From IMG/VR virus record IMGVR_UViG_3300025057_000045, positions 1-22,728 of that record: a DNA stretch of 22,728 nucleotides. One strand, given 5' to 3'. A program made the position numbers and the translations under genes. The stretch comes from a virus. Below are positions 1,666 to 20,192 of this stretch, piece after piece; the first letter of the stretch is position 1; each line of letters opens with the position of its first letter. The notes under the pieces were generated by a model. The model made no database searches. It was given only the letters and a program-made list of their open reading frames with translations, and was not told the DNA's origin.

Positions 1666-1698
1666 AAAAAAAGAAGGTGAGCTATTAAACCCACCCTC
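1666..1698 (-). terminator. Rho-independent terminator-like hairpin before the 117-aa/portal pair
   Basis: Read on the minus strand, GAGGGTGGG and CTCACCTTC can form a 9-bp stem with two G-U pairs around an 8-nt loop, followed directly by seven T residues. This is the classical intrinsic terminator layout. It lies in the only sizeable gap in this block, after the 182-aa structural gene and just before the 117-aa gene, so it would reduce read-through into the portal unless it is leaky or the portal has its own promoter. Confidence 0.6.
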
Positions 1699-1720
1699 TA
1701 CAATCAACTATATATTATGA

Positions 1721-2352: not shown

Positions 2353-3288
2353 TTAGGCGTGGTATAATACTATATCAGAACCTATTCCATATTGTACACC
2401 TGATGTATATCTCATAATACATCTTACATTTTGTGAACCATCAAGATCACTCATATCAAGAAGTTTAACTTCGTTGTGATCAGAAAGTAAACCTGTACCA
2501 AAGTAAAGGTTAGATTTCTGTGCAGCCATTGCAGTATCATCATTCATACCTTGTGCAACAAATAATTTAACACCATCAAATGTTAATGCACCATTATTCC
2601 ACCATTGTGTTCCTTGATTGTTAACACCATTAGCACCTAATCCAGATGAACCAAATCCACCTAATGCTCTAACATATGCTCTAGCAATGTTTTGTGATAC
2701 GTAAATGTACATATCTTCTTTACCGTAAAGTGCAGAAGGAATAGCATCTACAATAGAACCTAATTTATCAATTACGTTTGCAGCAGTTACAGCAGCGTGT
2801 GAAGCAACATCAATTACATCAGCATCAGCTAGTGCAAGTGTTACTAAACCATCGTGCTCACCAGCATTAGCGTTTACACCTTCCCAGATATTTTGCTCTG
2901 TTTTTTCTGCTACCAAACCAGCAACGTGGCCAATGATAAAATCAGAAAATTTAGGTGGCATATTATCGTATGCTGAATATCCCATTTGTACAGCTTCCCA
3001 ATCATCTCTAAAATCTTGACGGCAAAACTCTAGGTTTACTTGAAATTCTTCAGGTTGTAATATTCTTTCAGTTAATGTAACAGTACCTGTAGCTGTAAAA
3101 TCACAAGTTGCATCCTTGATGATATTAGCATCAGTAGCAGCTTTCTTAATTACACTTTTATACTTTACATTTGGTTTTACTTCAATTCCACCATTCTCAA
3201 TAGTAGAACCAGAAAGTAATGCAGCAGCAATATACTTACCAGCAAATTCTCCTGCATATGTACTTGTTATACTTGTAGTAGTAGCCAT
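2353..3288 (-). CDS. Major capsid protein, 311 aa
   Basis: A 311-aa protein in the position and size range of HK97-fold capsid subunits. Seen: an Ala/Gly/Thr-rich N-terminus (MATTTSITSTYAGEFAGKYI), a segment with VTLTERILQPEEFQVNLEFC, a long amphipathic region and a C-terminal strand-rich end (RYTSGVQYGIGSDIVLYHA) resembling major capsid proteins of Bacteroidota phages. It follows the acidic scaffold-like gene by 10 bp, as scaffold-capsid pairs commonly do, with an XkdF-like protease further upstream. The ATG has an A-rich leader (AATAAAAA) and no Shine-Dalgarno sequence. The fold assignment is from pattern and context, not structure. Confidence 0.78.
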   Translation of the reverse strand: MATTTSITSTYAGEFAGKYIAAALLSGSTIENGGIEVKPNVKYKSVIKKAATDANIIKDATCDFTATGTVTLTERILQPEEFQVNLEFCRQDFRDDWEAVQMGYSAYDNMPPKFSDFIIGHVAGLVAEKTEQNIWEGVNANAGEHDGLVTLALADADVIDVASHAAVTAANVIDKLGSIVDAIPSALYGKEDMYIYVSQNIARAYVRALGGFGSSGLGANGVNNQGTQWWNNGALTFDGVKLFVAQGMNDDTAMAAQKSNLYFGTGLLSDHNEVKLLDMSDLDGSQNVRCIMRYTSGVQYGIGSDIVLYHA

Positions 3289-3298: not shown

Positions 3299-3907
3299 TT
3301 AGTTATTATTAAATATTTTGTTATAAACTCTATCTTTTGTTGTTTCAGTTCTTTTACCAGCTATTGTAAAATGAACATTCTTTGTTTCTGCTTCAGGATT
3401 GTGTTTAATTGGTTCAGCAACCTCTGCAGATAATTCTTCTTTAGTTTCAACAACTTCTTCTTTGGACATTTCTTCTTCTTTGTCCTTGTAACCTAATTTT
3501 TCAATCATTGCTTTGATTTCTTCAAATGCTAGCGCAAATTCTTCTCTAGTTACATATTGCATTTCTTCTTCTTCTAATTCAGTTTCTACTTTTTCTTCAG
3601 TAGTTTCTTCAACTGTATCTTCAGAAAGTTCTTCTTCTGCTTCTTCAGCAGCAGCTTCTCCAATACTATCAATGATACCTTCTTCAATTACAAAAAGTGT
3701 TCTACCATCTTCTAGTTCATATTCACCTACTGGTAATGCCATTTCACCATCTTCTGATTTGATAAATACTGCATTTCCTTTGGTAAATTCTTCTGATACT
3801 AATAATGTACCATTCTTTAAACTAATTTCAGCTAGTTCTACTTTTTCTTCAGAAAGTTCTACACCAACAATATTTTTGATTTTGTTTAGTATGTCGTTTG
3901 CTTTCAT
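3299..3907 (-). CDS. Scaffold-like acidic protein upstream of the capsid gene, 202 aa
   Basis: The N-terminal third (residues about 18-75) is beta-rich, with ALPVGEYELEDGRTLFVIEE. The middle is extremely Glu-rich (about 80-115) and is followed by a predicted coiled coil (VTREEFALAFEEIKAMIEKL). The basic C-terminus ends KDRVYNKIFNNN. An acidic, helical protein directly before the major capsid fits a scaffold that fills the procapsid and is later removed by the protease. The start is 15 bp downstream of one of the two 30-bp promoter-like elements, so this gene probably opens its own transcription unit with the capsid gene. A minor capsid role is the alternative. Confidence 0.65.
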   Translation of the reverse strand: MKANDILNKIKNIVGVELSEEKVELAEISLKNGTLLVSEEFTKGNAVFIKSEDGEMALPVGEYELEDGRTLFVIEEGIIDSIGEAAAEEAEEELSEDTVEETTEEKVETELEEEEMQYVTREEFALAFEEIKAMIEKLGYKDKEEEMSKEEVVETKEELSAEVAEPIKHNPEAETKNVHFTIAGKRTETTKDRVYNKIFNNN

Positions 3908-3922: not shown

Positions 3923-3952
3923 TAATGTAGAAAAATGTGCAAAGTGTTATGT
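3923..3952 (-). promoter_or_regulatory. 30-bp promoter-like element, copy 1 (before scaffold/capsid genes)
   Basis: On the minus strand it reads ACATAACACTTT, G, CAC, A, TTTTT, then CTACATTA. It matches the element at 13173-13202 at 28 of 30 bases. It lies in the 61-bp gap between the 157-aa gene and the scaffold-like gene, ending 15 bp before that ATG. TACATT could be a -10-like hexamer, which would give a very short leader. It does not fit the usual Bacteroidota -33 TTTG / -7 TAnnTTTG spacing, so I infer a phage-specific factor. Confidence 0.6.
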
Positions 3953-3968
3953 GTTTTTGCAAAAAAAA

Positions 3969-4442
3969 TTATGCTTTAGCTTGTATTATAAACCACTCTG
4001 TACCATTACACCATATTTTTATACCTTCATAAGCTCTATTTATTCTATAAGCACTTGAACTTCCATCTAATGTTTGACCAGCTCTAGGTGTTAAATCAGC
4101 GTGAGTAGCAGTTGCAAATGTTGAATCTGAAATAATTCTTTTAGCTCTGTTTAAATTTTTACTATCAGTTGCATCAGGCAAAGTTAATTCTACTGTGCCA
4201 TTTGCTCCACTCCAACTTAATACAATAATTTCAGCTTCATCATAAGTTGAATCATTTAAATCTATTGTTCCACCTGATACACTTACTGTTAATGGTGTTG
4301 GATCTAAATGATTTACTATATAGTGCTGTAATTCATTTGCACTTACTTTTTTAGTTTCTGATGAATGTACTAATGCTATTGGTTCACTACCATCTAAACT
4401 TGATGCAGTTACTGCTGTTAATTGACTTATTTTTTTTCCCAT
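3969..4442 (-). CDS. Minor virion protein with a fiber-type N-terminus, 157 aa
   Basis: The N-terminus MGKKISQLTAVTASSLDGSE resembles the short leader of many phage fiber and appendage proteins (KISxLTxxTxxxxxD). The rest is Thr/Ser/Asp-rich and probably beta-structured, ending with a KIWCNGTEWFIIQAKA strand. No enzyme motif is visible. It lies within the head block between the Cys-rich 68-aa gene and the scaffold, so a head decoration or head-fiber role is the best guess. The family is not confidently recognised. Confidence 0.6.
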   Translation of the reverse strand: MGKKISQLTAVTASSLDGSEPIALVHSSETKKVSANELQHYIVNHLDPTPLTVSVSGGTIDLNDSTYDEAEIIVLSWSGANGTVELTLPDATDSKNLNRAKRIISDSTFATATHADLTPRAGQTLDGSSSAYRINRAYEGIKIWCNGTEWFIIQAKA

Positions 4443-4444
4443 TT

Positions 4445-4651
4445 TTATAAATTTATATTTTGTTCATTTTCTTGTAATAAATTACCGCCTGCTTCAGTAA
4501 GCAGTACACCTAAACCTGTAATTGAACCTATGCCTTGTGCTTGTAATGAACCATCACAACATTTTCTACTATATCTTCTACCATCTGCACATAAACAACC
4601 TCTTTTAGTTCCTTTAGGTGAAGTTCTACTTGGTGTTTTCCATTTTTTCAT
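4445..4651 (-). CDS. Small Cys-rich basic protein of the head region, 68 aa
   Basis: I place the start at the internal ATG at 4651 (MKKWKTPSRTSPKGTKRGC) because the longer frame from 4675 would overlap the protease gene. Four cysteines lie in a compact C-x-C ... C-C pattern (GCLCADGRRYSRKCCDG), followed by QGIGSITGLG. I recall similar short CxC/CC proteins in flavobacterial phages but know no function. Metal binding or disulphide use is possible. It is co-linear with the protease and the 157-aa gene. Confidence 0.6.
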   Translation of the reverse strand: MKKWKTPSRTSPKGTKRGCLCADGRRYSRKCCDGSLQAQGIGSITGLGVLLTEAGGNLLQENEQNINL

Positions 4652-4656
4652 ATTAT

Positions 4657-5856
4657 TTATTTTATAGGTACGCAATTAGGTACTCTTTTACCATTCTTCA
4701 TTTTAAAACCTATCATTTCATACCCTGCCTGACAAGGTTTTTTCATTTCGTGCTTTTCACAAGGCATATACCATTCTTTACCTTCATATTCGTGAACGTG
4801 AAAACCTTCACAGCCTATGTTCTTTGCCATTTCTTCTGCCTTTTCTTGTGTGCTGTATGCTAATCTATCATCTAGTATTGCAAAATCTTCATTAACTACC
4901 ATTGATGCTAAATTAATTTCACCTAGTTCTTTTAATTTACTTTCTGCCCATCTTAAACCAGCTTTACCACCCCATAGTAAATAGCTAATTGTACCACAAG
5001 CAGTACTATCACTTTCATCATAGTATTCTTGAGCTCTAGATAAATAGCTATACATTCTTTTAATGGTTTCTAAACTTATATTCTCTTTGTTTGCTAATTG
5101 TTGCGCTCTGATTTTTCCAACTTGTGTTGCGCATTTGTTATTAACCTTTTCATTAAGTTCAATGCCACGTTTAGCATTATTTGATACTCCTGAAGGATAA
5201 TCTTTGTATGTTTCAAGTGTAATCTTCTTGCCATTTTTAGTTCTTTTATCTTTTCTAATTAGTGCCTTAATATTACTTAACATATATTCAGCTTCTTCTT
5301 CTTCTATAGCTTGCATTTCTGCTTTTAGATTAGGTTTCTGTATTTTAGCTTTATCTGCAAAGTATCCTTCTATACTAAATCCTTTTACTTTACCTTCCTT
5401 TACATAATCATTCCAAACCTCATCATTTTCCACTTTCATACTAATCATCCAAGTGCCTTCTGGTACTTCAAAACCATACATTTTGCTTTTATCCATTTCA
5501 GGATTCTCTACTATCCAAGATTCTACAACAGTTAAACCATTGATTTCCATATTGTGTTCTAGTGTTGCATTATTTTGATTACCATTCATAAAAAACAATT
5601 CACTTGCTCTTTTTACTGTATCCTTACTGAAATACACATAGAACATTGTATCATTTCTTTTTCTAAATATTGGCTTATTAGGTATCAATGCAGCACCCAT
5701 TAGTATTTTCTTATCTTCATCCACTTTTGCAAACTTTACTTCTTGTTTGCTTAATGCTATAAAATCTGATTCTATAGCTGGATTCTCAACAATGCTAACC
5801 GCTTCTATACCTGTTAGTTCATCATTTTCATCTAGTAATAATTCTATTATATCCAT
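4657..5856 (-). CDS. XkdF-like phage prohead serine protease with an extra C-terminal region, 399 aa
   Basis: The N-terminal 170 residues look like the XkdF-type putative prohead protease: the opening motif IVENPAIESDFIAL (22-35), NATLEHN with His101, ESW with Ser113, the pair PEGTWMISMKV and VKGFSIEGYF (Ser161). Such enzymes cleave scaffold and capsid during maturation. A second part (about 205-315) is Lys/Asn-rich and contains TLETYKDYPSGVSNNAKRGI and STACGTISYLLWGG. The last 70 residues carry Cys/His-containing segments and end with NGKRVPNCVPIK. The gene lies upstream of scaffold and capsid, as expected. The catalytic residues are guesses from family pattern; the length is greater than the protease domain alone. 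Confidence 0.68.
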   Translation of the reverse strand: MDIIELLLDENDELTGIEAVSIVENPAIESDFIALSKQEVKFAKVDEDKKILMGAALIPNKPIFRKRNDTMFYVYFSKDTVKRASELFFMNGNQNNATLEHNMEINGLTVVESWIVENPEMDKSKMYGFEVPEGTWMISMKVENDEVWNDYVKEGKVKGFSIEGYFADKAKIQKPNLKAEMQAIEEEEAEYMLSNIKALIRKDKRTKNGKKITLETYKDYPSGVSNNAKRGIELNEKVNNKCATQVGKIRAQQLANKENISLETIKRMYSYLSRAQEYYDESDSTACGTISYLLWGGKAGLRWAESKLKELGEINLASMVVNEDFAILDDRLAYSTQEKAEEMAKNIGCEGFHVHEYEGKEWYMPCEKHEMKKPCQAGYEMIGFKMKNGKRVPNCVPIK

Positions 5857-5866
5857 TTTATTTATT

Positions 5867-7792
5867 TTATCTACCTACTGTTGCAGCAGATATTATATTA
5901 TTATTTAATTGTTGTGCAGTAGTTACATCTTGTGCTACTACATATGCTTGTACAGGTTGCTGTTGGCCTAATGCCTGTGCAACTTGGTTAATACCACTTT
6001 GGCCTACTATATTAAACTGTGGTGCTTGTGGTTGTGCTGCACCTCCTGTAGATACACTAGGTGTTGTACCACCTCCACCATTACCTGAAGGTTGAAATTT
6101 CTGTGAAGCAATAGCAGCTACCTGTGCTGCACCAGCTACACCCATTGCTACCATATTTGCAACCCTTAATGCTTGTGGTGGTGTGAAATCTGTAGTTTCT
6201 GCTGCTGCTTTCATAATAGCTCTAGAAGTATCTATTAATACAGTTGTAATGGCTAATGCTTTATTTAATTGAAATGCTCTTTTTGCATTCTTTTCATTAC
6301 TAGCTTCAAATGCATTAATTAACTGTTGCATACCATTTAAAACATTTTGTTCTGTTTCTAGTTTATAGGCATCTAAATTTTCTTTATCCTTTTTAATTTG
6401 TTCATTAGCTTGGTTAAATATATCTACCATTGCATCACCAACTCTTTCATTTTCAGCTATTATCTCATCTGCTAATGCTTTTTCATTTTCTAACCTTTTA
6501 AAGTGTATTTCTTGCTGAAAGTTTAATAGTTCTTCATTAGCATCTACAAATGCTTGTGTACCTTGCTCATATTGATCTCTTTGGTTTGTTAACCTTTCTA
6601 CACCTAGTTCTTCTTCTAAATCTATTGCATCTCTTTCTAGTTGTAACCTTTTTATTATATCATCTTCTAGTGATGCTGTAAATTCTGCTTCTGCTATCTT
6701 TCTTTCATCAATGCCATCTATAACACTTTGCTCTAATTCTATCTTTTCTCTTAATAGTGCATTTGCATTACTATCTTGTTCACTTCTAAAACCTTCTATT
6801 TGTGCTAGTACTGCTTGCTTTTCATTTCTAGCTTCTAATAGTGCAATATAGTTTTCTTGGTTATCATTTAAATTGTACTGTTCTTGTGCTTGCCTAATTT
6901 GAATATTAACCTGCCTTAACATTGCTTTTTCTTGCTTATCTAATACATCTTTTAGATCATTGTTGGCCTGTATTCTTTCTTCAATAGTTTTAAATTCATT
7001 ATCTCTAATTTGTCTTAACTGTTCTGCTTGTATATCATACTTTTCAATTAAACCTTGTTGTTTAACAGCAGCTATTTCAGCTTGCTTGGCTAATTCTACA
7101 TTTGCTTTTGCTTGCTCATATGTTTCTGTAACTGATTCTGCAATATCCTGAACAAAACCTTTAACTGCATTGTTTGCTTCTTCTACAGCACCCATCATTT
7201 TTTTGTAGCCATCTGTCATTTGTTTAGTAGCTGCATCTAAATCTTTAGTTAATGATTCTGCTTCTTCTGTATCACCTGTGAATTCATTCCACGCAATACG
7301 CATTTCAAGTATTATTCTTTTAAAGTTTCCTGCTACTAAATCAAACTGACCACTTAACTGATCTACTAGATTATTCTTTATTTTTTTAGCACCATCAGCT
7401 ATACTACTAGTAAATGTATCCCAAGTAGCAAACATAGAACCACTATCATCTTCAAACTTCTTTGCAAACTTTGAAAAACCTATTTTCATTGATTCTACAG
7501 AAGTATTAAAGAAATCTGTTACTTCTTGTGATGCACCAATAACATCTTTTAAACCATTAAATGCTGCAATAGCCAAACCTATACCTGCTGCCTTTAATGC
7601 TAAACCTACACTTTTAATACCACCAGCTAAACCTTTTGAGGCCTTGTTCATATCCTCAAATCCTTTGGTAGCTTTATCTGTAGATACTTTTACTTCATTC
7701 TTTAAATCCTTTATTTCAGATTGTAAACTTTCTACTTGGCTAACTGCTTTATCAGTTTTTAATATTAATTCAATTATTTCTTGCCTTGCCAT
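5867..7792 (-). CDS. Tail tape-measure protein, 641 aa
   Basis: This long, mostly helical protein sets tail length and later helps DNA passage. Seen: N-terminal coiled coil (about 10-50), an Ala/Gly-rich hydrophobic stretch (about 54-80, GLALKAAGIGLAIAAF) of the type common in tape measures, long Glu/Gln/Lys heptad-rich coiled coil from about 220 to 500, a second hydrophobic helix (MVAMGVAGAAQVAAIA, about 548-563), then a Gly/Pro/Gln-rich C-terminus. At roughly 1.5 angstrom per residue it would specify a tail near 0.1 micrometre, a rule-of-thumb estimate. It starts inside the 51-aa upstream ORF (23-bp overlap). It follows the hub-like gene instead of preceding it. Confidence 0.8.
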   Translation of the reverse strand: MARQEIIELILKTDKAVSQVESLQSEIKDLKNEVKVSTDKATKGFEDMNKASKGLAGGIKSVGLALKAAGIGLAIAAFNGLKDVIGASQEVTDFFNTSVESMKIGFSKFAKKFEDDSGSMFATWDTFTSSIADGAKKIKNNLVDQLSGQFDLVAGNFKRIILEMRIAWNEFTGDTEEAESLTKDLDAATKQMTDGYKKMMGAVEEANNAVKGFVQDIAESVTETYEQAKANVELAKQAEIAAVKQQGLIEKYDIQAEQLRQIRDNEFKTIEERIQANNDLKDVLDKQEKAMLRQVNIQIRQAQEQYNLNDNQENYIALLEARNEKQAVLAQIEGFRSEQDSNANALLREKIELEQSVIDGIDERKIAEAEFTASLEDDIIKRLQLERDAIDLEEELGVERLTNQRDQYEQGTQAFVDANEELLNFQQEIHFKRLENEKALADEIIAENERVGDAMVDIFNQANEQIKKDKENLDAYKLETEQNVLNGMQQLINAFEASNEKNAKRAFQLNKALAITTVLIDTSRAIMKAAAETTDFTPPQALRVANMVAMGVAGAAQVAAIASQKFQPSGNGGGGTTPSVSTGGAAQPQAPQFNIVGQSGINQVAQALGQQQPVQAYVVAQDVTTAQQLNNNIISAATVGR

Positions 7793-7925
7793 TTTCTATT
7801 TTTATTTGGTTCAATCCTTCTCTAATGCTTAATGGTACTTTGTTAATACCTAATGCTATATTAATATGTTTATCATATAGCTTATTCTCTTTACAAAATT
7901 CTAATGCTTCTAATATTATTTTCAT
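7770..7925 (-). CDS. Small protein between tail hub and tape measure, 51 aa
   Basis: The frame starts at ATG 7925-7923, which shares ATGA with the stop of the 728-aa gene, and ends with TGA inside the start of the tape measure (23-bp overlap). The product starts MKIILEALEFCKENKLYDKH and is mainly helical, basic towards the end. The exact coupling on both sides and the otherwise unfilled gap argue that it is translated. I know no family. It could be a small tail assembly factor, or translation through it may simply couple the two large tail genes. Confidence 0.55.
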   Translation of the reverse strand: MKIILEALEFCKENKLYDKHINIALGINKVPLSIREGLNQIKIENGKARNN

Positions 7926-10108
7926 ATTTTATTAATTAGTTCTAATTCTGTTTCACCACTTTGTAATTTTGTTTTCATACTGTTAATAGTATAAGACCTT
8001 GTGCCAATTATTATAGTATCATCTAAAGACAAATTAATTAAAACTTTTAGTGGTAAAATAGCTTTAAATTTAAAAATCCTTGATTCCTTTTTATATAATC
8101 TTGTAATATAATTTGTATAATACTTTTGAAATAAAGAATTATTTATTCCTCCAAAATCAGTATAATCATAGCTGTTTACTTCACTACCAAAATTTAAATT
8201 ATAGGTTGGAGGTGTTGTTGTACTTCCTACACTATTATAATTATGTGGCATCCAATAGTTAGAAATTGAATATCTTGTGCCTGCTGGACATAAAGCATTT
8301 TTAGTATCAGGTCTAGTAGTATCTACAAAATTCATCCCAAAATATCCTGTAGTTTTATAAACTCCATAAAATATAACAGGTTTACTAATTACTGGTTCTT
8401 CATTGCTATCTACGTGATATCCATATTGAGTATCTATTGGAGTATTATTTAAACCTATATTAGTAAGTCGTTCATAAAGTATGTGTTCTAAATCAGCTTT
8501 AACATTAAATTTATTATTAGTAGTTAAATCACTTTTAAATTCTAAACTGCCAAATTTTCTATTGTTTGTGTTATTAAATGCATCAGCTAAAATTGTTTTT
8601 TGTTCTGCATATTCAAAATCTATTTCATTATAAGGTATAACACTTAATACTGTATGCTCATTAGTTTTTACATATTCTGTAATATCGTGAGTATCTCCGT
8701 TATTATAAAAATCATCTAAAGTTTTAACTACTATCTCACCATTAAAATCAACAAATGCTGTTAAATTGTGCATCTTAAATAAAGTGTTTAGAAAATCTAA
8801 CACTTTCATATCTGGCATTTGATCTGTAATAACTACTTGTCCAGTTTGTGGTGTTAAGTTTGACGCAGTAGAAGTAAAAGTTGCAGTATAATTTGTGGTC
8901 GTTGGTGTAGGATTGGTGTCTATTGTAACAGTATAGTCTAAATCATATTGTGCTTGAAATTCAAATGCTTCTTCAGTTGTTACCCTTCCAACAATATCAC
9001 CAGTAAAAAATTCACCATCTTCAAAAGTGTAAGAAATTGTATTTGTTCCTGTTTGATTTGTTTTTTTAGCTAATGTTGTCCAATTTGATGCATCTAATAA
9101 TTCAATAGTATAAGGAACAGAAGCAAATCCAGTATTTGGAGTAACTTGAAAATCAATAGTAAATTCTATAAATAAAGTACTAGCATTTGGAGTATAATTG
9201 TATGTTATAATACCATTCCCTAGAGTAAATCTTGGACTATTATTTGGATCTGTAAGTTCAGTACAATTAGAACCTGAACAAGTATAAGAATCAGAATTTC
9301 CTATCCACGTTCCTGCTAAAGCTAATTTACCTTTTCTTCTATGTAGCCACATATAAAGATTATCCATAGCAGCAGAATCAAAAAATTCACTTGTTTTAAA
9401 TGTTAATGAATATTGTTCTTCTATTGCTTTTATAATATTTTTTACTAATATGGCTGGTTTTAAATCTTCTGGAACAACACCTCTCTGTGTTCTATTAGTT
9501 ACATTTACTGATATATTACCACCGTGATCAAGATTAGCTTGTGAATCTGCTATGTATTGCTGTGAATGTGTTATTAATGGATATATAATAGCATCATTAT
9601 ATGTAACAGAATCAACTGTAAAATTTAAACCACTTTCTAAACCTGATTTAACATTTGCAGTATTATTAATATGATCAAAGTTATTAAGCCATTCTAATTG
9701 ATTTAACTTATCTTCACCTATTAAATCATTTAATGTGATTGTATTACCAAAGAATGTAACCTTGTACATTGATGGTTGGTTATTTCTCATTGTAACACTT
9801 TCTAATCTAATCTTGCCATCTTTAAATGCAAAGTGATTTAATTCTATTCTAGCATTAGCTAGTAGTTGATTATCAAAACTCTCCACATCTGGATTATACC
9901 ACCACTTAAATATTTTATTATTGGTTTTGCTTGCAGGTAAATTAAATGTCTGTGAATAATCAGTAAAAACCTTATCAATGCTTTTAACATCTTGTATTAC
10001 TTGTGTTAAGGTTATTAATTCTTCCTCCATCAAATCAACTCTTATATAGTCTTGATCTGTGCTATCATTTCTTAACTTGGGTTGTATATATAGTATTACT
10101 TTTTGCAT
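7922..10108 (-). CDS. Large tail-tip or baseplate hub-like protein, 728 aa
   Basis: The N-terminus (MQKVILYIQP...YIRVDLMEEELITLTQVIQD) and the C-terminus (INLSLDDTIIIGTRSYTINSMKTKL, then SGETELELINKI) match the style of baseplate hub/tail-tip proteins, whose last domain carries a Y-x-I-N strand and an L-x-x-G-E-T-E-L-E-L ending. The middle (about 260-410) is Thr/Asn-rich and beta-structured. It is translationally adjacent to the 378-aa gene (shared base) and to the 51-aa ORF (ATGA). It probably sits at the distal tail end and contacts the host surface. No hydrolase motif is obvious. Confidence 0.6.
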   Translation of the reverse strand: MQKVILYIQPKLRNDSTDQDYIRVDLMEEELITLTQVIQDVKSIDKVFTDYSQTFNLPASKTNNKIFKWWYNPDVESFDNQLLANARIELNHFAFKDGKIRLESVTMRNNQPSMYKVTFFGNTITLNDLIGEDKLNQLEWLNNFDHINNTANVKSGLESGLNFTVDSVTYNDAIIYPLITHSQQYIADSQANLDHGGNISVNVTNRTQRGVVPEDLKPAILVKNIIKAIEEQYSLTFKTSEFFDSAAMDNLYMWLHRRKGKLALAGTWIGNSDSYTCSGSNCTELTDPNNSPRFTLGNGIITYNYTPNASTLFIEFTIDFQVTPNTGFASVPYTIELLDASNWTTLAKKTNQTGTNTISYTFEDGEFFTGDIVGRVTTEEAFEFQAQYDLDYTVTIDTNPTPTTTNYTATFTSTASNLTPQTGQVVITDQMPDMKVLDFLNTLFKMHNLTAFVDFNGEIVVKTLDDFYNNGDTHDITEYVKTNEHTVLSVIPYNEIDFEYAEQKTILADAFNNTNNRKFGSLEFKSDLTTNNKFNVKADLEHILYERLTNIGLNNTPIDTQYGYHVDSNEEPVISKPVIFYGVYKTTGYFGMNFVDTTRPDTKNALCPAGTRYSISNYWMPHNYNSVGSTTTPPTYNLNFGSEVNSYDYTDFGGINNSLFQKYYTNYITRLYKKESRIFKFKAILPLKVLINLSLDDTIIIGTRSYTINSMKTKLQSGETELELINKI

Positions 10109-11244
10109 TATCTTATATCATTCACTAAATTAAATGCCTTTTCAAAGTTCATTGTGTAGTTTATTAATCTATCATTTAAACCTGTTTTGTATGTAAAGTT
10201 ACTATCTTTTAATGTAACAGGATAAATTACATTTTCATCATCTGTTAGCCAGATATATTCACTTACCATTAGTTCTTCAAAGTACACATTCATTCTTTCA
10301 TCTACAAAACCACTATTTAATGATATTGATTCTGTACCATTAGCATTGTGTACCTTTTTAGAATGTGCATTTACATTGTAAGTATTGTATGTTATTGTTT
10401 CATCACATTCTTCTTCTCTTTCACTATAGGTTACTGTTCTAGGTTTAAATATACTTCTGTTAAAAGTTTCATTTCTAGTATCTAGTGTTTCAATTGATTT
10501 CTTATGAAAGAATAAATTCTGCAAAGCTCCCCACCTATTTAAAAAAGTTATTTTATGAACTGGATATTTACACTCCTCAATCTCTTTTAAAGTTATTGAA
10601 GTTGCCTCCTCGTCATCATATACAATATAAGCTTCATCATATTCTTGTGACGTTGTACTTCTAGTTGAATAAAGTATTTTTTGATTTGAATTGCCATTAT
10701 CACTAACATTATCTGTATATATTGTAGTTCCATTTAATTTCCAAGCAATAGAATTTACTCTTTCTTTATTAAAAGGTAGTACTAGATTACTTCCTTTGTG
10801 ATATTCATAATAATCACCACTAATCATTGCAATAGGTTCTGTAATATAATTTACACCTTCTTTAAACTTATTGAATCCTTCCTGTGCTAAATATGTGTTT
10901 GTTACAGCAGGTGATATAGCACTACCATCTGTTTCATATCCTGTTACAGTTACTTGTACCCACATTGATTGTGTTTGTGCAGATACACTAAATGTACCAT
11001 TAAATTTCTGTTCAAAGTGATCATTAACAATTTCACTAATATCAAATGTTACACTAGTTTCATTAGGCAATACTTTCTTCTTTAAAGTGTATTGACCATA
11101 TATACCACCGCAAGTAGGTAGTACACCACTTGTGCCTTCATAGATAGATATGTTCATCTGAAAGTAATCTATATCATATGTTGGTGATGTATAGTTTGTT
11201 GTTCTTATAAAGTATGGTGATCTTGTTCTAATAATTGTACTCAT
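10108..11244 (-). CDS. Tail structural protein, probably distal tail or tip, 378 aa
   Basis: A 378-aa, Thr/Tyr/Asn-rich, beta-strand-dominated protein starting MSTIIRTRSPYFIRTTNYTS and ending in MNFEKAFNLVNDIR. No catalytic motif, signal peptide or membrane helix is visible. Its ATG overlaps the stop of the gp10-like gene in an ATGA junction, and its stop touches the start of the 728-aa hub-like gene. In Bacteroidota phages a protein of this kind commonly precedes the large tail-tip protein, which suggests a distal-tail adaptor. The specific family is not certain. Confidence 0.55.
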   Translation of the reverse strand: MSTIIRTRSPYFIRTTNYTSPTYDIDYFQMNISIYEGTSGVLPTCGGIYGQYTLKKKVLPNETSVTFDISEIVNDHFEQKFNGTFSVSAQTQSMWVQVTVTGYETDGSAISPAVTNTYLAQEGFNKFKEGVNYITEPIAMISGDYYEYHKGSNLVLPFNKERVNSIAWKLNGTTIYTDNVSDNGNSNQKILYSTRSTTSQEYDEAYIVYDDEEATSITLKEIEECKYPVHKITFLNRWGALQNLFFHKKSIETLDTRNETFNRSIFKPRTVTYSEREEECDETITYNTYNVNAHSKKVHNANGTESISLNSGFVDERMNVYFEELMVSEYIWLTDDENVIYPVTLKDSNFTYKTGLNDRLINYTMNFEKAFNLVNDIR

Positions 11245-11723
11245 AATTCAAAATTATCTTCTATGTATCCTGCTACTATTTCATCACCATATAAATCTAA
11301 ACCTCTTTCAAATGGTTTGGTGAAAAACATTGTAGCTCTAATTCCTTTGTTATATATGCTTCTAGCTAGTAAATAGTTTAGTGATTTTCTATTAATAAAT
11401 CTACCTTGCTCATCTCTAGGTGCAATACCTTTTTTAATACTCCACTTATCAAACACACTACTAGGTGGCCTTTTGTTAGTGTACTTAAATGGTGATTTAC
11501 TACTTTCAGGATATGTAGATTTAGCACCTTTTACACCCTGATCTTGATAAACACCATATTCTTCACTTTCAAATTTTATCTTACTACCTTGTATTTTATA
11601 TCCTAAACTTTGGTACAGCTTACCACTAGATTTCTGTCCTTTTCGTGTAAGGTTGGCACGTGATTCTTTGATCACATACTTTGCATACTTTTCTAGTGCT
11701 TCTTTAAACTTACTCATTAGCAA
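11241..11723 (-). CDS. HK97 gp10-like head-tail or tail completion protein, 160 aa
   Basis: The protein is basic and begins with an amphipathic helix (FKEALEKYAKYVIKESRANL). It continues KSSGKLYQSLGYKI, then a strand-rich part (YGVYQDQGVKGA), then an R-rich helix and FFTKPFERGLDLYGDEIVAGY at the end. The early helix followed by a G-x-L-x-x-S-L segment and the late fragment resembling TKPFER fit HK97 gp10-type neck/completion proteins, which join head and tail. It overlaps the upstream 151-aa gene by 7 bp. Confidence 0.6.
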   Translation of the reverse strand: MLMSKFKEALEKYAKYVIKESRANLTRKGQKSSGKLYQSLGYKIQGSKIKFESEEYGVYQDQGVKGAKSTYPESSKSPFKYTNKRPPSSVFDKWSIKKGIAPRDEQGRFINRKSLNYLLARSIYNKGIRATMFFTKPFERGLDLYGDEIVAGYIEDNFEL

Positions 11724-12172
11724 TATGTCATTTCAGTAGTTGTACCTATATCAAATGTTACTGCCCAGCCAGCTAACATATTATCAAACCTTTCTGTAAA
11801 TGGTTCACAAGTTGCATCATTAATTAACTCAAAACCATTTCTGTAAGTATCCTTCTTCTGTAATACTCTCATTATTCTAGTTGCTAGTGCTAATTGTGTG
11901 TTTAGTATATCTTGCCTATTATCATTGCCTAGAAAGTAATCTCTTGTTTGCTCATTACTAATATCTACTAAATCCATTAAGAATATAGTCATATTATGTA
12001 CTACATAATTATCTTGTATTGTAGCACTATTTACTGTAATGTGGCAAAGTGGATATAAACTTTGTTTCTTTAAATCTACATCACCAATATCACCAAATGT
12101 TACTTCGTGATTAAATGGTTCTGCTTTAACTACATCTCTAATACTATCTATAACTTTGTAAAAACTTTTCAT
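11717..12172 (-). CDS. Putative tail terminator or completion protein, 151 aa
   Basis: A helix-strand protein, starting MKSFYKVIDSIRDVVKAEPF. It includes YPLCHITVNSATIQDNYVVHN and a late AGWAVTFDIGTTTEMTYC strand pair. An N-terminal helix followed by sheet, and its position just before a gp10-like gene, are typical of tail-terminator proteins that cap the tube next to the head. It overlaps the 88-aa gene by 4 bp (ATGA). The assignment is from size, order and fold impression. Confidence 0.5.
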   Translation of the reverse strand: MKSFYKVIDSIRDVVKAEPFNHEVTFGDIGDVDLKKQSLYPLCHITVNSATIQDNYVVHNMTIFLMDLVDISNEQTRDYFLGNDNRQDILNTQLALATRIMRVLQKKDTYRNGFELINDATCEPFTERFDNMLAGWAVTFDIGTTTEMTYC

Positions 12173-12435
12173 ATTGATTTTATATATAATGGTGCGTGCT
12201 TACCTAAATCTTCTTCAATGAATTCATCTAGCCAATCTATTGATTCATCAAAATCTGCATCTTCATCTAACATTAGTAATTCTAAACACTTCCAGTAATT
12301 GTAAACAGCTCTAATAGGTTTGCTACTAGTAACACCCATAAATGCTTCTTCAAAACCATCTGCAAGTATTACGTACTCGTGTTTATCTACTAGTTCCTGT
12401 TCCATTAGCTTTTCTAATATTTCTTCTCTTTTCAT
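12169..12435 (-). CDS. Conserved-looking acidic protein, 88 aa, unknown function
   Basis: A helical, acidic protein with a distinctive central motif (ILADGFEEAFMGVT) and an Asp/Glu-rich C-terminal half (LLMLDEDADFDESIDWLDEF) ending APLYIKSI. I recall near-identical motifs in other Bacteroidota phages, always among tail genes, but know no function. The start ATG shares ATGA with the stop of the -1 frame of the tail chaperone pair, which supports that -1 frame being translated. Confidence 0.65.
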   Translation of the reverse strand: MKREEILEKLMEQELVDKHEYVILADGFEEAFMGVTSSKPIRAVYNYWKCLELLMLDEDADFDESIDWLDEFIEEDLGKHAPLYIKSI

Positions 12436-12683
12436 TTCTTTTTAAACATCTGTTGTTGTAGATCAGCTTTATCTTTTTCAAAAGCTAGATACTGCAAACA
12501 ACTATGTAGCTTTAGTTGTGTAACCTCATCAAACCTCCTGACATCACCTTGCGCCAATCCATAGATTGATTGATACCAAGACCATTTTTCATTAAATCCA
12601 CTTTCTGCTGTGGCAAAACTATTTCCTCCTGTGTTGCCAAATAGTTCAGGATATGATTCAATAATTCTTTCCTTAAATTCCAA
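12432..12683 (-). CDS. gpT-like extension of the tail chaperone, reached by -1 frameshift, 82-83 codons
   Basis: This frame has no ATG start: it opens just after a TAG at 12701-12699 and can only be entered by TTG at 12683 or by a -1 slip on the T-run at 12690-12682. The product begins EFKERIIESYPELFGN, contains KWSWYQSIYGLAQGDVRRFDE and CLQYLAFEKDKADLQ, and ends basic (FKKK). The aromatic WxWYxSIYxLAxGDxRRF pattern looks like a real conserved domain. Its stop is coupled to the next gene by ATGA. By analogy with lambda gpG/gpGT I infer a fused product of about 240 residues made at a fraction of the rate. Confidence 0.65.
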   Translation of the reverse strand: MEFKERIIESYPELFGNTGGNSFATAESGFNEKWSWYQSIYGLAQGDVRRFDEVTQLKLHSCLQYLAFEKDKADLQQQMFKKK

Positions 12684-13165
12684 AAAAAAACTAATGCACT
12701 AAATACTATATCTAAACCTATACCTTGCATATCATAAACATCTGCACCTTCATAATCTTCTATTAAGTATTTATCTTTTCTAGTAAATGATATTGGCCTA
12801 TAAAGTACACACATAGCTTTATGCATTAAAGACCATTCAGATAGGTAATTATCAAGATCAACATATTCACCAAAAGTAATTTCATCTAGTTTAGGTATAA
12901 AACCAAATTCAACACCATTGTGTTTAAACCTATCAATAAATTTAGGTTCTTCTTTAAATAGGTTGTTTATGGTATTAGTAATACTATCTATATCTGTTGC
13001 TTTAATTTGCAGTACAGTTTTTAATGGTATGTTGCAGAATATTTCTATCATCTTCTGCTTTAAAAAATTATCATCTTCATTCTTATCACTAATCTTTAAC
13101 CACTTCTGGTATTGTGCTAATGATATTTCACTTAATGATTCAGGTATGTTAATTGTAACTTTCAT
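12512..13165 (-). CDS. gpG-like tail assembly chaperone, zero-frame product, 217 aa
   Basis: The N-terminus MKVTINIPESLSEISLAQYQ leads into a helical domain with a conserved-looking stretch (GVEFGFIPKLDEITFGEYVD), then MHKAMCVLYRPISF. The nine-T run falls at VFF near residue 160, after which the zero frame continues 56 more codons while the -1 frame is also open. Tail chaperones bind the tape measure during assembly and often come as G/GT frameshift pairs. The promoter-like 30-bp element ends 7 bp upstream of the ATG. In many phages the pair is directly before the tape measure; here about 4.5 kb separates them, which lowers certainty. Confidence 0.62.
   Translation of the reverse strand: MKVTINIPESLSEISLAQYQKWLKISDKNEDDNFLKQKMIEIFCNIPLKTVLQIKATDIDSITNTINNLFKEEPKFIDRFKHNGVEFGFIPKLDEITFGEYVDLDNYLSEWSLMHKAMCVLYRPISFTRKDKYLIEDYEGADVYDMQGIGLDIVFSALVFFWNLRKELLNHILNYLATQEEIVLPQQKVDLMKNGLGINQSMDWRKVMSGGLMRLHN
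12682..12690 (-). promoter_or_regulatory. Nine-T slippery site for -1 frameshifting
   Basis: On the message the zero frame reads GUU UUU UUU UGG. U UUU UUU is a canonical X XXY YYZ heptamer. A one-base slip back gives UUG GAA UUU, entering the frame that runs to 12432. A stop in the -1 frame sits 9 nt before the run, so the slip window is narrow. Transcriptional slippage on a nine-T tract, or a length error in the run, would have the same effect. Confidence 0.6.
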
Positions 13166-13172
13166 ATATATA

Positions 13173-13202
13173 TAATGTAGAAAAAAGTGTAAAGTGTTAT
13201 GT
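13173..13202 (-). promoter_or_regulatory. 30-bp promoter-like element, copy 2 (before tail genes)
   Basis: It differs from copy 1 at only two positions (A for G, T for A on the minus strand). It ends 7 bp before the ATG of the tail chaperone gene, in the gap after the large terminase. If CTACATTA contains the -10, the message would be nearly leaderless. The placement before a second structural block supports a late-promoter reading. Confidence 0.6.
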
Positions 13203-13215
13203 ACAAATTTTATAT

Positions 13216-13274
13216 TTCTTTTCTTTTCTTATCTCTTCTTATCTTAATGCTTTAGTAATGCTTAAGCAATGCTT
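13216..13274. repeat. Three 11-bp repeats plus C/T-rich tract, copy A
   Basis: Units TCTTAATGCTT (13242-13252), TAGTAATGCTT (13253-13263) and AAGCAATGCTT (13264-13274) stand head to tail next to a TTTC/TTAT-rich pyrimidine tract (13216-13241). The last unit overlaps the large terminase stop codon, and the rest is non-coding. Layout and first unit match copy B at 19444-19499. Possible iteron-type binding site, origin or packaging-related site. Confidence 0.55.
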
Positions 13275-14478
13275 AATAAATGTAGTATTCTCCACCACTT
13301 TGTAATTGATAACTAACTGCATACCTCAAAGCATCTAATGCGTGATTGTAATTGTCTACTGGTGTCTGGCTTTTACGTTCTAGCCATACATAGTTGTTTA
13401 GTTCTTTGATTAAATCAGTACTATCACTATCTATTACCAAATCATAATCTTGAATCATACTAATACCATATGTTACTGAACCTTGTCCTTTAATAGCTGG
13501 TACTATATTACAATGTCTTGATAACTCATTTATTAATCTAGGTTCTGCACTATCTGCTACTATCAAATCATTACCTGCATACTTTACATTTAATTGTGCC
13601 AGTTCACTTGTAGTTAGTTTAGCTTTATAATAACATAACTGCACATAAATGATCTTATTATTTTTATCTATTGAAATTTTGCAAAGCGTTGAAGGATCTT
13701 GAGCAAATCCAAAATCTTGGCCAAAAATTATTTTACCTACGTGTTTAAACTCACCTATACTCCAATTAGAATATATAACACCTTCAGCTTTATCTAGCCA
13801 AGCACCTTGTATAGTATGCTTAAATCTATCTGGCCTTCTTTGCTTCATACTTTCTATCTGCTGTATGTAGCTATCACTTAAGTTTTCTTTGTTATCTAAA
13901 TAGGTTGTGTGTATGTAAGTGGTATCACCTTTTGTTATGTTGCTGCCAGCTTCTACACCTCTAGCTTCATACCACCTTTGGTATATAAAATGTTCTTTAG
14001 TTGTTGGATTCAGTATTAATATTATTCTATTTTCTTGTGCTTTGTTTCTAACACTTAAATCAATCTTATCAAATGTATCTTCATCTACTAATTCTTCTGC
14101 TTCATCCATTACCCACGTTGTGATACCTTGCAATGATTTTAAGTTAGCTGTTTGATCACCTGATGAGGTTTTAATACCTCTAAATATTATCTTACTGCCA
14201 TTGCCTTTGTTTATGATTTCATCTTTGGTTATTTTAAAATCATCAACCTTATTAAGCATTTCAATCTTTTCAATAAATTCTGGTATAATAGATATACTAG
14301 CTGATCTTAATGTATATCTAGTAAACAGTATTGTGTGGCCTGCCTGATAAGTTAGAAGTAGCAGTATGGTATTTATTGCAAATGATTTACCTGAACCTCT
14401 ACCGCCTGTGATAATAAAATAACGTGCTTTAGATTCATCAAGTACTAGATACTTATTGTGTAGCTTTAATTCCTGCAA
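13273..14478 (-). CDS. terL: Terminase large subunit, 401 aa
   Basis: The packaging motor ATPase and nuclease that pumps DNA through the portal and cuts concatemers. Seen: Walker A GGRGSGKS at 25-32, Walker B with catalytic Glu in VMDEAEE at 123-129, the coupling-type motif ILNPTT at 155-160, and a RNase H-like nuclease with Asp255 (FGQDFGF), Asp309 (VADSAE) and Asp382 (NHALDALRY). The pattern resembles the PBSX/Terminase_3 group. The length is normal. It overlaps the small-subunit gene by 26 bp and is followed by the repeat and promoter gap. Confidence 0.95.
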   Translation of the reverse strand: MQELKLHNKYLVLDESKARYFIITGGRGSGKSFAINTILLLLTYQAGHTILFTRYTLRSASISIIPEFIEKIEMLNKVDDFKITKDEIINKGNGSKIIFRGIKTSSGDQTANLKSLQGITTWVMDEAEELVDEDTFDKIDLSVRNKAQENRIILILNPTTKEHFIYQRWYEARGVEAGSNITKGDTTYIHTTYLDNKENLSDSYIQQIESMKQRRPDRFKHTIQGAWLDKAEGVIYSNWSIGEFKHVGKIIFGQDFGFAQDPSTLCKISIDKNNKIIYVQLCYYKAKLTTSELAQLNVKYAGNDLIVADSAEPRLINELSRHCNIVPAIKGQGSVTYGISMIQDYDLVIDSDSTDLIKELNNYVWLERKSQTPVDNYNHALDALRYAVSYQLQSGGEYYIY

Positions 14479-14909: not shown

Positions 14910-15252
14910 TAAATAGTTTTCTCATTGTATCTACTAGTTCTTTTACACAACTACCACAGGTGCTCATTTCTCTATGTTGATTGAATATTCTATTATATAT
15001 TTTTAATAGTGCTGATTGTTCTGTTGGCCCTACTCTATTATTAATGTGTTTAAATATATCTTTAAGTGTTTCATATTCTTCTGCGTTTAAGCATTCTGGT
15101 TTCTTATATGGAAATAGTTTATTTAGTTTTTCTTTTCTTGCTTCACATCCACAATCTACACCTAGTTTATCAAACACATAATCTACACCAGCTTTTATGC
15201 CTGTTGCTTTAGTTATCTTCTCTATTGTATCTCCTAATCCTTTACTTTTCAT
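14863..15252 (-). CDS. Small Cys-containing phage protein, 129 aa, unknown function
   Basis: It starts MKSKGLGDTIEKITKATGIK, has GVDCGCEARKEKLNKLFPYK (about 32-51) and a second cysteine cluster MSTCGSCVKELVD (about 95-107). Two CxC/CxxC clusters could together bind zinc. I recall the GLGDTIEKITKATGI and CGC..R pattern as a recurrent protein just upstream of terminases in Bacteroidota phages. It may be a DNA-binding or packaging-related accessory. It overlaps the sigma-like gene by 11 bp. Confidence 0.62.
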   Translation of the reverse strand: MKSKGLGDTIEKITKATGIKAGVDYVFDKLGVDCGCEARKEKLNKLFPYKKPECLNAEEYETLKDIFKHINNRVGPTEQSALLKIYNRIFNQHREMSTCGSCVKELVDTMRKLFNEYEYEQETQAEEGS

Positions 15253-15763
15253 ATAATTTTTTTTTAATGTTCTTCTTTGCTCTTTTAATAGTATTGTATA
15301 CTGTTACGTGGCCTAATCTAGTTTCTTTCGCTAACTTTCTAATGCTATTGAACTGCTTAACGTATAACGTAAAAAGTTTACGATCAAACCAATACATACC
15401 ATTTAGTATATCTAGTACCTTATTATTAAATTCTTCTAGTTCAAATTCATTTTCTTCTACTATGTTTTTTATTACTGCGTTTTCATCTTTAGGTATTCTG
15501 TTTTCTATGTTAGCAGTTTCTTGTATTATTCTTTCTATAGTTCTTTTTATTATGCCAAAATGTGGTTTATCATTTATAATTAATTGCTGTGTTTCTAGCT
15601 TACCATCGTGTACTTGTTCATATAACTTAATATACATTTCTTGTACAACATCTTGTACAACTTTCTTATCTTTCTTATATAGTAAATTATTTGCAATTTC
15701 ACAAAAATCATTGTGGTAAAGTGCTAGATGTTCTAGTATATTATTTAGTTCTAGCTTCTTCAA
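15242..15763 (-). CDS. Sigma-70-like factor or related HTH transcription regulator, 173 aa
   Basis: Residues about 14-50 (CEIANNLLYKKDKKVVQDVV then QEMYIKLYE) look like sigma region 2, where DxVQExxxKLxE is typical. Residues about 134-168 (VKQFNSIRKLAKETRLGHVT, then VYNTIKRAKKNIKKKL) look like a region-4 helix-turn-helix with a basic recognition helix. Length suits a small ECF-type factor. It is encoded in the middle region just before the terminase, as expected for a late-gene switch. It could direct host RNA polymerase to the two 30-bp elements, an inference. A plain HTH regulator without core binding is the alternative. Confidence 0.55.
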   Translation of the reverse strand: MKKLELNNILEHLALYHNDFCEIANNLLYKKDKKVVQDVVQEMYIKLYEQVHDGKLETQQLIINDKPHFGIIKRTIERIIQETANIENRIPKDENAVIKNIVEENEFELEEFNNKVLDILNGMYWFDRKLFTLYVKQFNSIRKLAKETRLGHVTVYNTIKRAKKNIKKKLYEK

Positions 15764-16094
15764 CTTCTATTAATAAGTTTACAAAATCATCTAATTCTAA
15801 TGCCACATAATCTCTTTCAAAGTTTTTAGTAAAGCACACTACTGGCATCTTTGCATTACCTAAACAATCGTTACGGCTTTGTTCTAGTGCTTTCCATATG
15901 TTTAATTTTTCTTGGTTCTTGCACTCCCAATTGAATTTACTTAATATACTATTATCATCAATGCACAGTATATCACCTTTCATAGATAAACCACCACTAT
16001 TAGGTGTTCTTCTAATATTAGCTTGTAGCTTTTCAGCTAGGTATTTTGCTACTTTTAATTCAAACCTTTTACCTTTTTTATTAGCATTCATCAA
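15741..16094 (-). CDS. PD-(D/E)XK nuclease, resolvase-like, 117 aa
   Basis: It starts MMNANKKGKRFELKVAKYLA with Glu12 in the first helix. Then come RRTPNSGG, LSMKGDI with Asp41, and WECKNQ with Glu57-x-Lys59, the E...D...ExK signature of Holliday-junction-resolvase/VRR-NUC-type folds. The R-x-P-x-S-G-G before Asp is typical of small phage resolvases that clear branched DNA before packaging. It overlaps its neighbours by 14 and 23 bp. The substrate is not provable from sequence. The second Met is an equally possible start. Confidence 0.68.
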   Translation of the reverse strand: MMNANKKGKRFELKVAKYLAEKLQANIRRTPNSGGLSMKGDILCIDDNSILSKFNWECKNQEKLNIWKALEQSRNDCLGNAKMPVVCFTKNFERDYVALELDDFVNLLIEVEEARTK

Positions 16095-16734
16095 ATATAG
16101 ATTTTTGTTTTACATTCTCTTTTCTTGTAATACCCAAAGCAGTTTCTAATATTGTTCTGCCAGCTTCATAATCTACTAAATTTCTTAAAACATCTCTATA
16201 ACCACCAACACCAGCACTTACTTTTATATCGTGAAATACCTCAAGCTTCTTATGTTCTTCTTTCATTGTGCATAAAATGCCATCAAGTTTTCTTTCTTTT
16301 AAATTATTTGGCAAATTAAAGTTAGTCCAATATAAGTGTCTACCTCTTTTTTTTGCTGGTATTAATGGTTCATAGTAAGGAATTACATTTTCTACACAAT
16401 ACTTACCATTAAAATAATTATCTAAAAAAATAATCTCCTCATAAAGTTTTAAATCAGGATAAATAGCTTTAAATGTATCTCTTGATTTTTGTGTAATTCT
16501 AATTTTACTATGGCTTGGGCAAGGAGGGCTACTCCAAATAAAATCAAACTCTTTGTAATGGTCTAATAAATACTGGTGTGCATCTGCTACTATTACTTTA
16601 TCATTAGGAAATCTCTCTTGGTATAGTTTAGCTAAATCTTTATCCCACTCTACAGCAGTAACATCTACATCTGTAACTTCATCCCATTTGTATCTATTGC
16701 CACCAAGACAAGCATATAAATTTAATATCTTCAT
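16081..16734 (-). CDS. DNA cytosine-C5 methyltransferase, small, 217 aa
   Basis: It transfers a methyl group from S-adenosylmethionine to C5 of cytosine in DNA. Seen: motif I LNLYACLGGN (4-13), a motif II acidic residue (VEWDKD), motif IV SSPPCPSHS with catalytic Cys72, motif VI VENV (114-117), and motif VIII GRHLYWTNF (131-139). The C-terminal GYRDVLRNLVDYEAG segment may be the reduced motif X. At 217 aa it is shorter than most Dcm-type enzymes, with little room for a target-recognition domain. It starts at an ATGA overlap with the 53-aa gene. It may protect the phage from restriction; the target is unknown. Confidence 0.85.
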   Translation of the reverse strand: MKILNLYACLGGNRYKWDEVTDVDVTAVEWDKDLAKLYQERFPNDKVIVADAHQYLLDHYKEFDFIWSSPPCPSHSKIRITQKSRDTFKAIYPDLKLYEEIIFLDNYFNGKYCVENVIPYYEPLIPAKKRGRHLYWTNFNLPNNLKERKLDGILCTMKEEHKKLEVFHDIKVSAGVGGYRDVLRNLVDYEAGRTILETALGITRKENVKQKSIFDEC

Positions 16735-17725: not shown

Positions 17726-18565
17726 TTATAATCCACAGTAACCAGAATCACATTCATTAAAATCAGTTTCAAATAGTTCTGTTTGTAGTTTATGTTGTTT
17801 TATATTATTATAAGTAATACCTGTTCTAAATGTACCTTTATTTTGTTGTTCTTGTTTATCAAACCAATTCATTTTATTAGGATGCAATTCAAACATTTTT
17901 TTTAATAATAATTCATTTCTCCACCAGCATCCAACACAATTATTTAAAGTGGCAAACCTAACATCTTTATCACTCCAATATTTTTCTATATTATCTCTAT
18001 ATATATTATCATTGATTAATGGAAATTCAGGTTTACAATATCTTACTTCTTGCCAACTATTTCTACCATCTTTAAGTTTAGTAAATGTAGCTTTAACATT
18101 TGTAAAACCTTCTTCATCAGTTTTTGCTAACATTGTTTTTGCTCTATTAGTTTCATTTGCTCTATATCCAAACCTCATTGTAACAGGTTCTTTAATTACA
18201 TCATACATCCAATATAAAATAGGCATAGTTTTCATTTCTGTGGTGCAATATCTTGCAATCTTATTTGGTAAATAACCACCTTTATATTTAATAACCTCAT
18301 CAAATGTTTTTCCACTTACCCAATGTATTTCTTGACCTATAAACTGCTCTAAATCTAATATGGTATTTATTATTACATCATCTTCTAAAGTACCTATAAA
18401 TTCAGTTCCTAACTTATCACTTACTAACTGCCTAACCTTTGCATCTTGATACATACAGCTTTTATCATCTGTTCTTACTAATGCAAACACATTATAATCA
18501 GCTGGATAATTAGCAGCTATATATGCTGATGTCTTGCCTCCTGATATACTATTTACTGTTTTCAT
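17726..18565 (-). CDS. PAPS-reductase-like PP-loop ATPase superfamily protein, 279 aa
   Basis: Residues 6-15 carry the PP-loop SISGGKTSAY, which binds ATP in the adenine nucleotide alpha-hydrolase fold. Cysteines occur at 107 (RYCTTEMKT), 177, 210/213 (NNCVGCWW) and 272/277 (ECDSGYCGL), enough for an Fe-S cluster or metal. Family members include PAPS reductase, DndC of DNA phosphorothioation and QueC-type enzymes. PAPS reduction has no obvious role here, so a nucleic acid or nucleotide modification is plausible, but this is inference. The gene is ATGA-coupled to the ATPase/helicase. Confidence 0.65.
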   Translation of the reverse strand: MKTVNSISGGKTSAYIAANYPADYNVFALVRTDDKSCMYQDAKVRQLVSDKLGTEFIGTLEDDVIINTILDLEQFIGQEIHWVSGKTFDEVIKYKGGYLPNKIARYCTTEMKTMPILYWMYDVIKEPVTMRFGYRANETNRAKTMLAKTDEEGFTNVKATFTKLKDGRNSWQEVRYCKPEFPLINDNIYRDNIEKYWSDKDVRFATLNNCVGCWWRNELLLKKMFELHPNKMNWFDKQEQQNKGTFRTGITYNNIKQHKLQTELFETDFNECDSGYCGL

Positions 18566-19832: not shown

Positions 19833-20192
19833 TTATAAACTTAAAAAATTAATTAATTCTTGTTCTTTTATTTCTTTGTAATTCAAAAAACATTTACCAT
19901 CATCAAAATTTGTGTTTTCAAATTGTATTAAATGAAAACCTAAATAATTCCAATCATTATCTATTCCATTATCTATCCATTTATTTATATTTTGCCACAT
20001 AATTTTTTGGCCTGTTCTTGGTTTACTATTTCTTGTTTTGATTTCTAACATCATTACTTTTTTTGTTTTCCAATTCCATAAAATAAAATCTAAATCACTT
20101 ACACTAAAACCTGTTTCTGAATCTGGTAATTTTTCTCTAATCCAACCACTAAATGTTAAATCTCTTATTCCTGTAACTTCTTTACGTGTCAT
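19833..20192 (-). CDS. PD-(D/E)XK nuclease next to a DNA methyltransferase, 119 aa
   Basis: Asp33/Asp35 in SVSDLDFILW and Glu50-x-Lys52 in MMLEIKTRN form the D...ExK core of restriction-endonuclease-like enzymes. Upstream residues (FSGWIREKLPDSETGF) and a C-terminal helix-strand part complete a minimal fold. Its ATG overlaps the methyltransferase stop (ATGA), so the two are co-translated. It could be a restriction partner, a resolvase, or a host-DNA-degrading nuclease. No HNH or GIY-YIG motifs are seen. Confidence 0.62.
   Translation of the reverse strand: MTRKEVTGIRDLTFSGWIREKLPDSETGFSVSDLDFILWNWKTKKVMMLEIKTRNSKPRTGQKIMWQNINKWIDNGIDNDWNYLGFHLIQFENTNFDDGKCFLNYKEIKEQELINFLSL

Follow-up and report, generated by a model that had tools for sequence, protein, structure and literature searches.

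The window (the whole stretch of DNA that was analysed, an entire IMG/VR record of 22.7 kb) carries two 30-bp elements, one between the terminase gene and the tail block and one ahead of the scaffold/capsid block. All the genes concerned lie on the minus strand, a point missing from the first-pass annotation of this DNA. The genes and features at the two sites are the following.

13273..14478, minus strand: large terminase gene, whose end is closely followed by the intergenic region with copy 2
13173..13202, minus strand: copy 2 (13202..13173, reading ACATAACACTTTACACTTTTTTCTACATTA), candidate late promoter of the tail block, also carried by relatives
13200..13196, minus strand: -35 box of copy 2, ATAAC
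13195..13180, minus strand: spacer of copy 2
13179..13174, minus strand: -10 box of copy 2, TACATT, 8 nt ahead of the ATG at 13165
12512..13165, minus strand: first tail-block gene (phrog_32199), predicted target of copy 2; its orthologue comes after the element in relatives
3923..3952, minus strand: copy 1 (3952..3923, reading ACATAACACTTTGCACATTTTTCTACATTA), candidate late promoter of the scaffold/capsid block, with boxes kept at the equivalent position in relatives
3950..3946, minus strand: -35 box of copy 1, ATAAC
3945..3930, minus strand: spacer of copy 1, 16 nt
3929..3924, minus strand: -10 box of copy 1, TACATT, 16 nt ahead of the ATG at 3907
3299..3907, minus strand: scaffold-like gene, first in the capsid block and predicted target of copy 1, matching the C-terminal part of phrog_24921
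2353..3288, minus strand: major-capsid-type virion protein (phrog_11320 / phrog_1623), downstream of copy 1

The first-pass annotation had described the copies as 28/30 identical, in the same orientation, and 15 and 7 nt ahead of an ATG (those at 3907 and 13165, respectively), all of which we found to be so. Its description of the blocks was also correct: the terminase gene lies ahead of copy 2, and copy 1 precedes scaffold-like, capsid and head genes up to the portal. The claim that the copies occupy the only notable intergenic gaps of the structural region apart from 1658-1747 was roughly right, with a further gap of 56 nt at 2297-2352 to be added. A motif search over the rest of the window, which the annotation had proposed, returned only copies 1 and 2 at up to 3 mismatches, and 100 dinucleotide shuffles of the window gave 0 matches, so that none is expected by chance. 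Separately, the 1658-1747 gap contains a hairpin with a T-run resembling an intrinsic terminator at 1672-1699 (minus strand), ahead of the gene starting at 1657. The scaffold-like part (3299-3907) and the head protease (4657-5856) are two distinct genes in the window, and copy 1 and further genes lie between the two.

Host promoters of the usual kinds were considered at both copies. The TAnnTTTG motif of Bacteroidota sigma-A promoters was not common to the two copies, and no exact occurrence lay just upstream of either. An ordinary sigma-70 promoter reaching outside the element (TTTRCA-N16/17-TAATAA or TATATA) was rejected, as a scan gave none with its -35 hexamer at the TTTRCA of the copies, and the TTTRCA stretch varies in relatives.

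Relatives were gathered through the terminase (viral contigs), a scan for the element and relatives of the capsid protein. The first-pass annotation had named loss of the element from relatives with conserved coding sequence as grounds for refutation; the element is instead kept at both positions. In relatives, the 30-mer splits into two conserved boxes and a less conserved spacer. In the class to which the window belongs (class A), the element reads ATAAC(ACT)-N16-TACATT(A), the boxes are more conserved than spacer and flanks, and the arrangement is always AAC-N16-TACATT; when the pattern AACAC...TYTACATT was searched with gaps of 8 to 15 allowed, a single length was found. A second class, class B, has ATAAC-N16-CGTTTA at both places. 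Class C (L081-L084) is represented by one site only in the contigs examined. A more distant genome, G015 (loci L107 and L094; group D), carries AAC-N16-GGTTTT at 4 sites, each ahead of a gene, against 0.28 expected, and this motif was the top pair of an unguided dyad search. The same search gave no clear AAC motif in the more distant genomes G031, G033, G038 and G043. Some genomes have a third match to ATAAC-N16-TACATT; we attributed these matches to chance, as they are located in coding sequence, mostly in a terminase stretch present in both classes. In L088, a third class A-like element (ATAAC-N16-TACATTACTATT-ATG, at 18365) precedes another gene. Across these groups the elements show the features of promoters for extracytoplasmic function (ECF) type sigma factors, namely AAC in the -35 box, a spacer of about 16 nt and a short -10 box (TACATT, CGTTTA, GGTTTT or CGTTAA). 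The -35 box of sigmaE contains AAC.

A candidate reader of both elements is encoded in the window itself.

15763..15242, minus strand: candidate ECF-type sigma factor of 173 aa, listed with a TTG start; matches phrog_1740 (sigma factor) at E=9.7e-8

The PHROG annotation of RNA polymerase sigma factor was matched by 23 of 27 homologues, while the window protein scored 12.1 bits against Pfam Sigma70_r2 (cut-off 24) and the sigma profile retrieved no sigma factor by sequence from the PDB. With the AlphaFold model (pLDDT 80.6), the top PDB matches in Foldseek were ECF sigma factors. The model has helices at 6-87 and 109-171 joined by a low-confidence linker (89-107); residues 3-97 superpose on sigma2 of ECF sigma factors (3.7 A over 84 aa) and residues 107-173 on region 4 of sigmaE, which reads the -35 box (2.3 A over 67 aa). 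The predicted protein thus consists of sigma2 plus sigma4, with neither sigma3 nor region 1.1. This two-domain fold is that of E. coli sigmaE (1or7, 2h27), from which the window protein differs in being phage-borne, in sharing only about 10-25% identity with ECF factors of that type in structural alignments, and in having no anti-sigma gene noted. Searches with the family profile detected the sigma gene in all records examined that were at least 27 kb long.

Judged by the terminase, the closest relatives of the window phage in culture are the Nonlabens phages P12024S and P12024L, at 55% identity, and from these we infer that its host is a flavobacterium. Since tblastn of the window sigma against cultured phages gave no match, the support from cultured phages comes from P12024S/L through profile comparisons. 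P12024S gp33 is annotated with Sigma-70 region 2, scores 25.2 bits against Pfam Sigma70_r2 (cut-off 24) and aligns to the family profile of the window sigma with probability 94. In the P12024S genome, AAC-N16/17-CGTTAATA occurs at six sites, all on the coding strand. This pattern, written AAC-N16/17-CGTTA(A/C)TA, has 0.10 matches expected in the shuffled genome, and its six matches end exactly 4 nt ahead of the annotated ATG of gp01, 05, 08, 41, 44 and 45 in the structural region. Furthermore, an unguided dyad search of P12024S returned AAAC-N17-CGTT as the best pair (p=1e-10, about 4,500 pairs tested). As a separate matter, P12024S gp01 (349 aa) matches both the head protease and the scaffold-like part. 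Promoters of single-subunit, T7-like phage RNA polymerases are likewise short near-identical repeats ahead of gene blocks, and the elements could be read as such promoters. Across relatives, however, they consist of two boxes with a diverging spacer and not of one unbroken conserved stretch of about 20 nt, and a phage RNA polymerase is absent from the P12024S annotation; we regard an origin of this kind as exceedingly improbable.

At the tail block the -10 box lies close to the start codon: 6-10 nt away at nearly all class A sites and, in class B, usually 5-8 nt away, a few class B entries having 11 or 30 nt. In P12024S the CGTTAA box is 6 nt from the ATG at 6/6 sites; at the capsid block the distance is mostly 16-18 nt across relatives. 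With transcription starts 6-8 nt downstream of the box, as in phiEco32, the class A tail-block and P12024S distances predict leaderless late mRNAs. Leaderless mRNAs account for only 5.5% of those mapped in Flavobacterium psychrophilum (PMC9723704), so that late phage transcription relying on such messages would be out of the ordinary.

The element classes were then compared with the sigma types. In all 12 records typed at both sites, one class was present at both (12/12), as a trans-acting factor predicts. Class A was divided into A1, the close kin of the window, and A2. Since terminase identity is 80% between A1 and A2 against 82% between A1 and B and 83% between A2 and B, A2 stands at least as far from A1 as from B. 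In contrast, sigma identity is 55% between A1 and A2 against 33% for A1-B and 31% for A2-B. The difference is largest in sigma2 (52% against 20% and 19%), whereas sigma4 is 72% identical between A1 and A2 and 56% between A and B. Between A and B the -10 box differs and the -35 box is the same. By these sequence comparisons, the putative promoter class tracks the sigma type and not the terminase, and the domain predicted to read the -10 box changes most where that box changes, while sigma4 diverges less and the -35 box is kept. Class B forms one clade in the terminase tree, so the change of sigma and element from A to B counts as a single event; independent support is given by the separate classes of P12024S and group D. 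One record, L012, combines a terminase only 79% identical to that of the window with a sigma at 94% identity, shares the tail-block element of the window, and looks like a recombinant or a chimeric record.

Two further readings were weighed against these data. The elements might be operators for a phage DNA-binding activator or repressor working with host polymerase, as near-identical copies ahead of co-regulated blocks would suit any trans-acting factor. They lack obvious dyad symmetry, however; boxes separated by 16 nt and set at a constant short distance ahead of the start codon have the geometry of a promoter, and a fitting sigma factor is encoded whose -10-reading domain diverges where the -10 box changes, so we consider operators very unlikely. 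Alternatively, the elements might be 5' leader sequences of mRNAs started just upstream by a host sigma-A promoter (TAnnTTTG at -7), acting at the RNA level, for example in translation. At the tail block, TAnnTTTG ends a few nt ahead of ATAAC in half of the class A sequences (10 of 20) and in most of class B (27 of 32), and flavobacterial TAnnTTTG lies at -12 to -5 (PMC9723704), a spacing that would let a leader begin inside the element. The motif accompanies only 1/14 and 0/10 capsid-block sites, however, though the boxes there are identical. Copy 2 of the window has no exact TAnnTTTG (AAAATTTG), the fixed AAC-N16 spacing and less conserved spacer are promoter-like, and the element class tracks the sigma type. 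An RNA leader is in our judgement improbable; the occurrence of TAnnTTTG just upstream of many tail-block sites means that an overlapping host promoter may exist there.

From the comparisons, the structural model and the analogy with known phages, we consider it very probable that both elements are ECF-type late promoters dependent on the phage sigma, working like those of phage 7-11. The interpretation offered by the first-pass annotation, that the copies are late promoters or sites bound by a phage factor, is thus the best-supported one; to it the analysis adds the bipartite structure, the candidate ECF-type sigma, a class that tracks the sigma type, and a cultured relative of the same layout. 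While the elements, their conservation, the sigma fold and the class tracking come from the data above, we infer binding, start sites and timing as follows. Host RNA polymerase carrying the phage sigma from 15763..15242 (minus strand) would bind each element, with sigma4 reading the -35 box ATAAC and sigma2 the -10 box TACATT 16 nt away. Transcription would start 6-8 nt past the -10 box and head to lower coordinates. The predicted 5' end lies at or within about 2 nt of the tail-block ATG for copy 2, a leaderless start, and about 8-10 nt ahead of the capsid-block ATG for copy 1. The sigma factor would presumably be made in an early or middle phase, so that tail and head genes turn on late.

A phage sigma factor with bipartite late promoters is already known from phage 7-11, and motifs that diverge with the sigma from phiEco32 and 7-11. 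In the passages of PMC8948821 drawn on here, the phage 7-11 sigma SaPh711_gp47 serves eight late promoters of the form GTAAtg-(16)-aCTA; as proposed for the window, host polymerase is steered by a phage sigma to late-gene promoters made of two boxes and a 16-nt spacer, and as in 7-11 one genome holds a phage sigma together with several matching promoters ahead of structural blocks. Phage 7-11 differs in infecting Salmonella, in its motif and in having eight promoters, and those passages do not mention near-leaderless placement. The same passages describe the phiEco32 sigma gp36, with middle/late promoters of the form tAATGTAtA and starts 6-8 bp downstream, and a related phage whose diverged sigma has another promoter motif. 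The phage sigma, the middle/late promoters, the start distance and the motif that differs with a diverged sigma parallel what is proposed for the window, whereas phiEco32 promoters have a single box and their sigma no recognisable region 4, both boxes and both domains being present here. In F. psychrophilum, the ECF promoter motif SM6 has a CGT -10 box (PMC9723704) similar to the CGTT boxes seen here in class B and in P12024S, and it belongs to a host and not a phage regulon, including type IX secretion components.

In relatives of flavobacterial phage, the near-leaderless layout and the natural set of swapped specificities look new. Our literature searches found no sigma-dependent late promoter in Bacteroidota phages, a weak negative given that most subscription papers lay outside their scope. 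We put at about even the chance that structural genes are expressed on leaderless or near-leaderless mRNAs from phage ECF sigma promoters in a widespread group of marine phages of flavobacteria, and that the -10 specificity of the sigma and all promoters of the genome switched jointly several times (TACATT, CGTTTA, CGTTAA, GGTTTT) with AAC retained at -35. If true, the joint switches would amount to a natural experiment on how a sigma factor is rewired together with its regulon. A late-transcription switch is predicted for uncultured marine phages related to flavobacterial phages, with P12024S as a cultured member; from the distance between promoter and ATG, late messages are predicted to be leaderless, in a host phylum without Shine-Dalgarno sequences; and the pairs of sigma and promoter class form a natural data set on the control of -10 specificity by sigma2 and on the rewiring of a regulon.

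Several minor observations concern the sigma gene and the surroundings of the elements. Class B sigma genes (L025:8939, L032:8933, L033:8683, L055:2227) hold a copy of the class B element within coding sequence, TATATAACGATTC...GCGTTTATATATAAG-ATG-ATG. Among 28 distinct class B sigma genes, the codons TAT AAC GAT and AAT AAA GCG TTT ATA TAT are invariant, including GCG for alanine, and the stretch has the highest synonymous conservation of the gene, its ragged N-terminal end aside. These invariant synonymous codons suggest selection on the DNA, and the intragenic element is possibly an internal promoter feeding the terminase region, or a site of autoregulation. After the terminase gene, at 13205-13285 (minus strand), the window carries an inverted repeat of the GCTTAAGC type followed by AAGATAAGA(AG)GAGATAAGAAAAGA. 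Where found in class A and B genomes (L024, L025, L032, L033, L055, L070, L079, L013), it occupies one place per genome, between terminase and tail block, and it is a candidate packaging (cos/pac) or replication site; a stretch 76% similar lies at 19444-19514 of the window. In L032, L033, L034, L055, L068 and L070, the gap between terminase and late promoter is a moron-like insertion spot with variable small ORFs, some of which have their own host-type promoter (TTTG-N19-TATATTTG) and a terminator-like hairpin. The early/middle region of the window holds a PAPS reductase-like gene and two DNA methyltransferase-like genes (17726-18565, 16081-16734 and 20189-21244).
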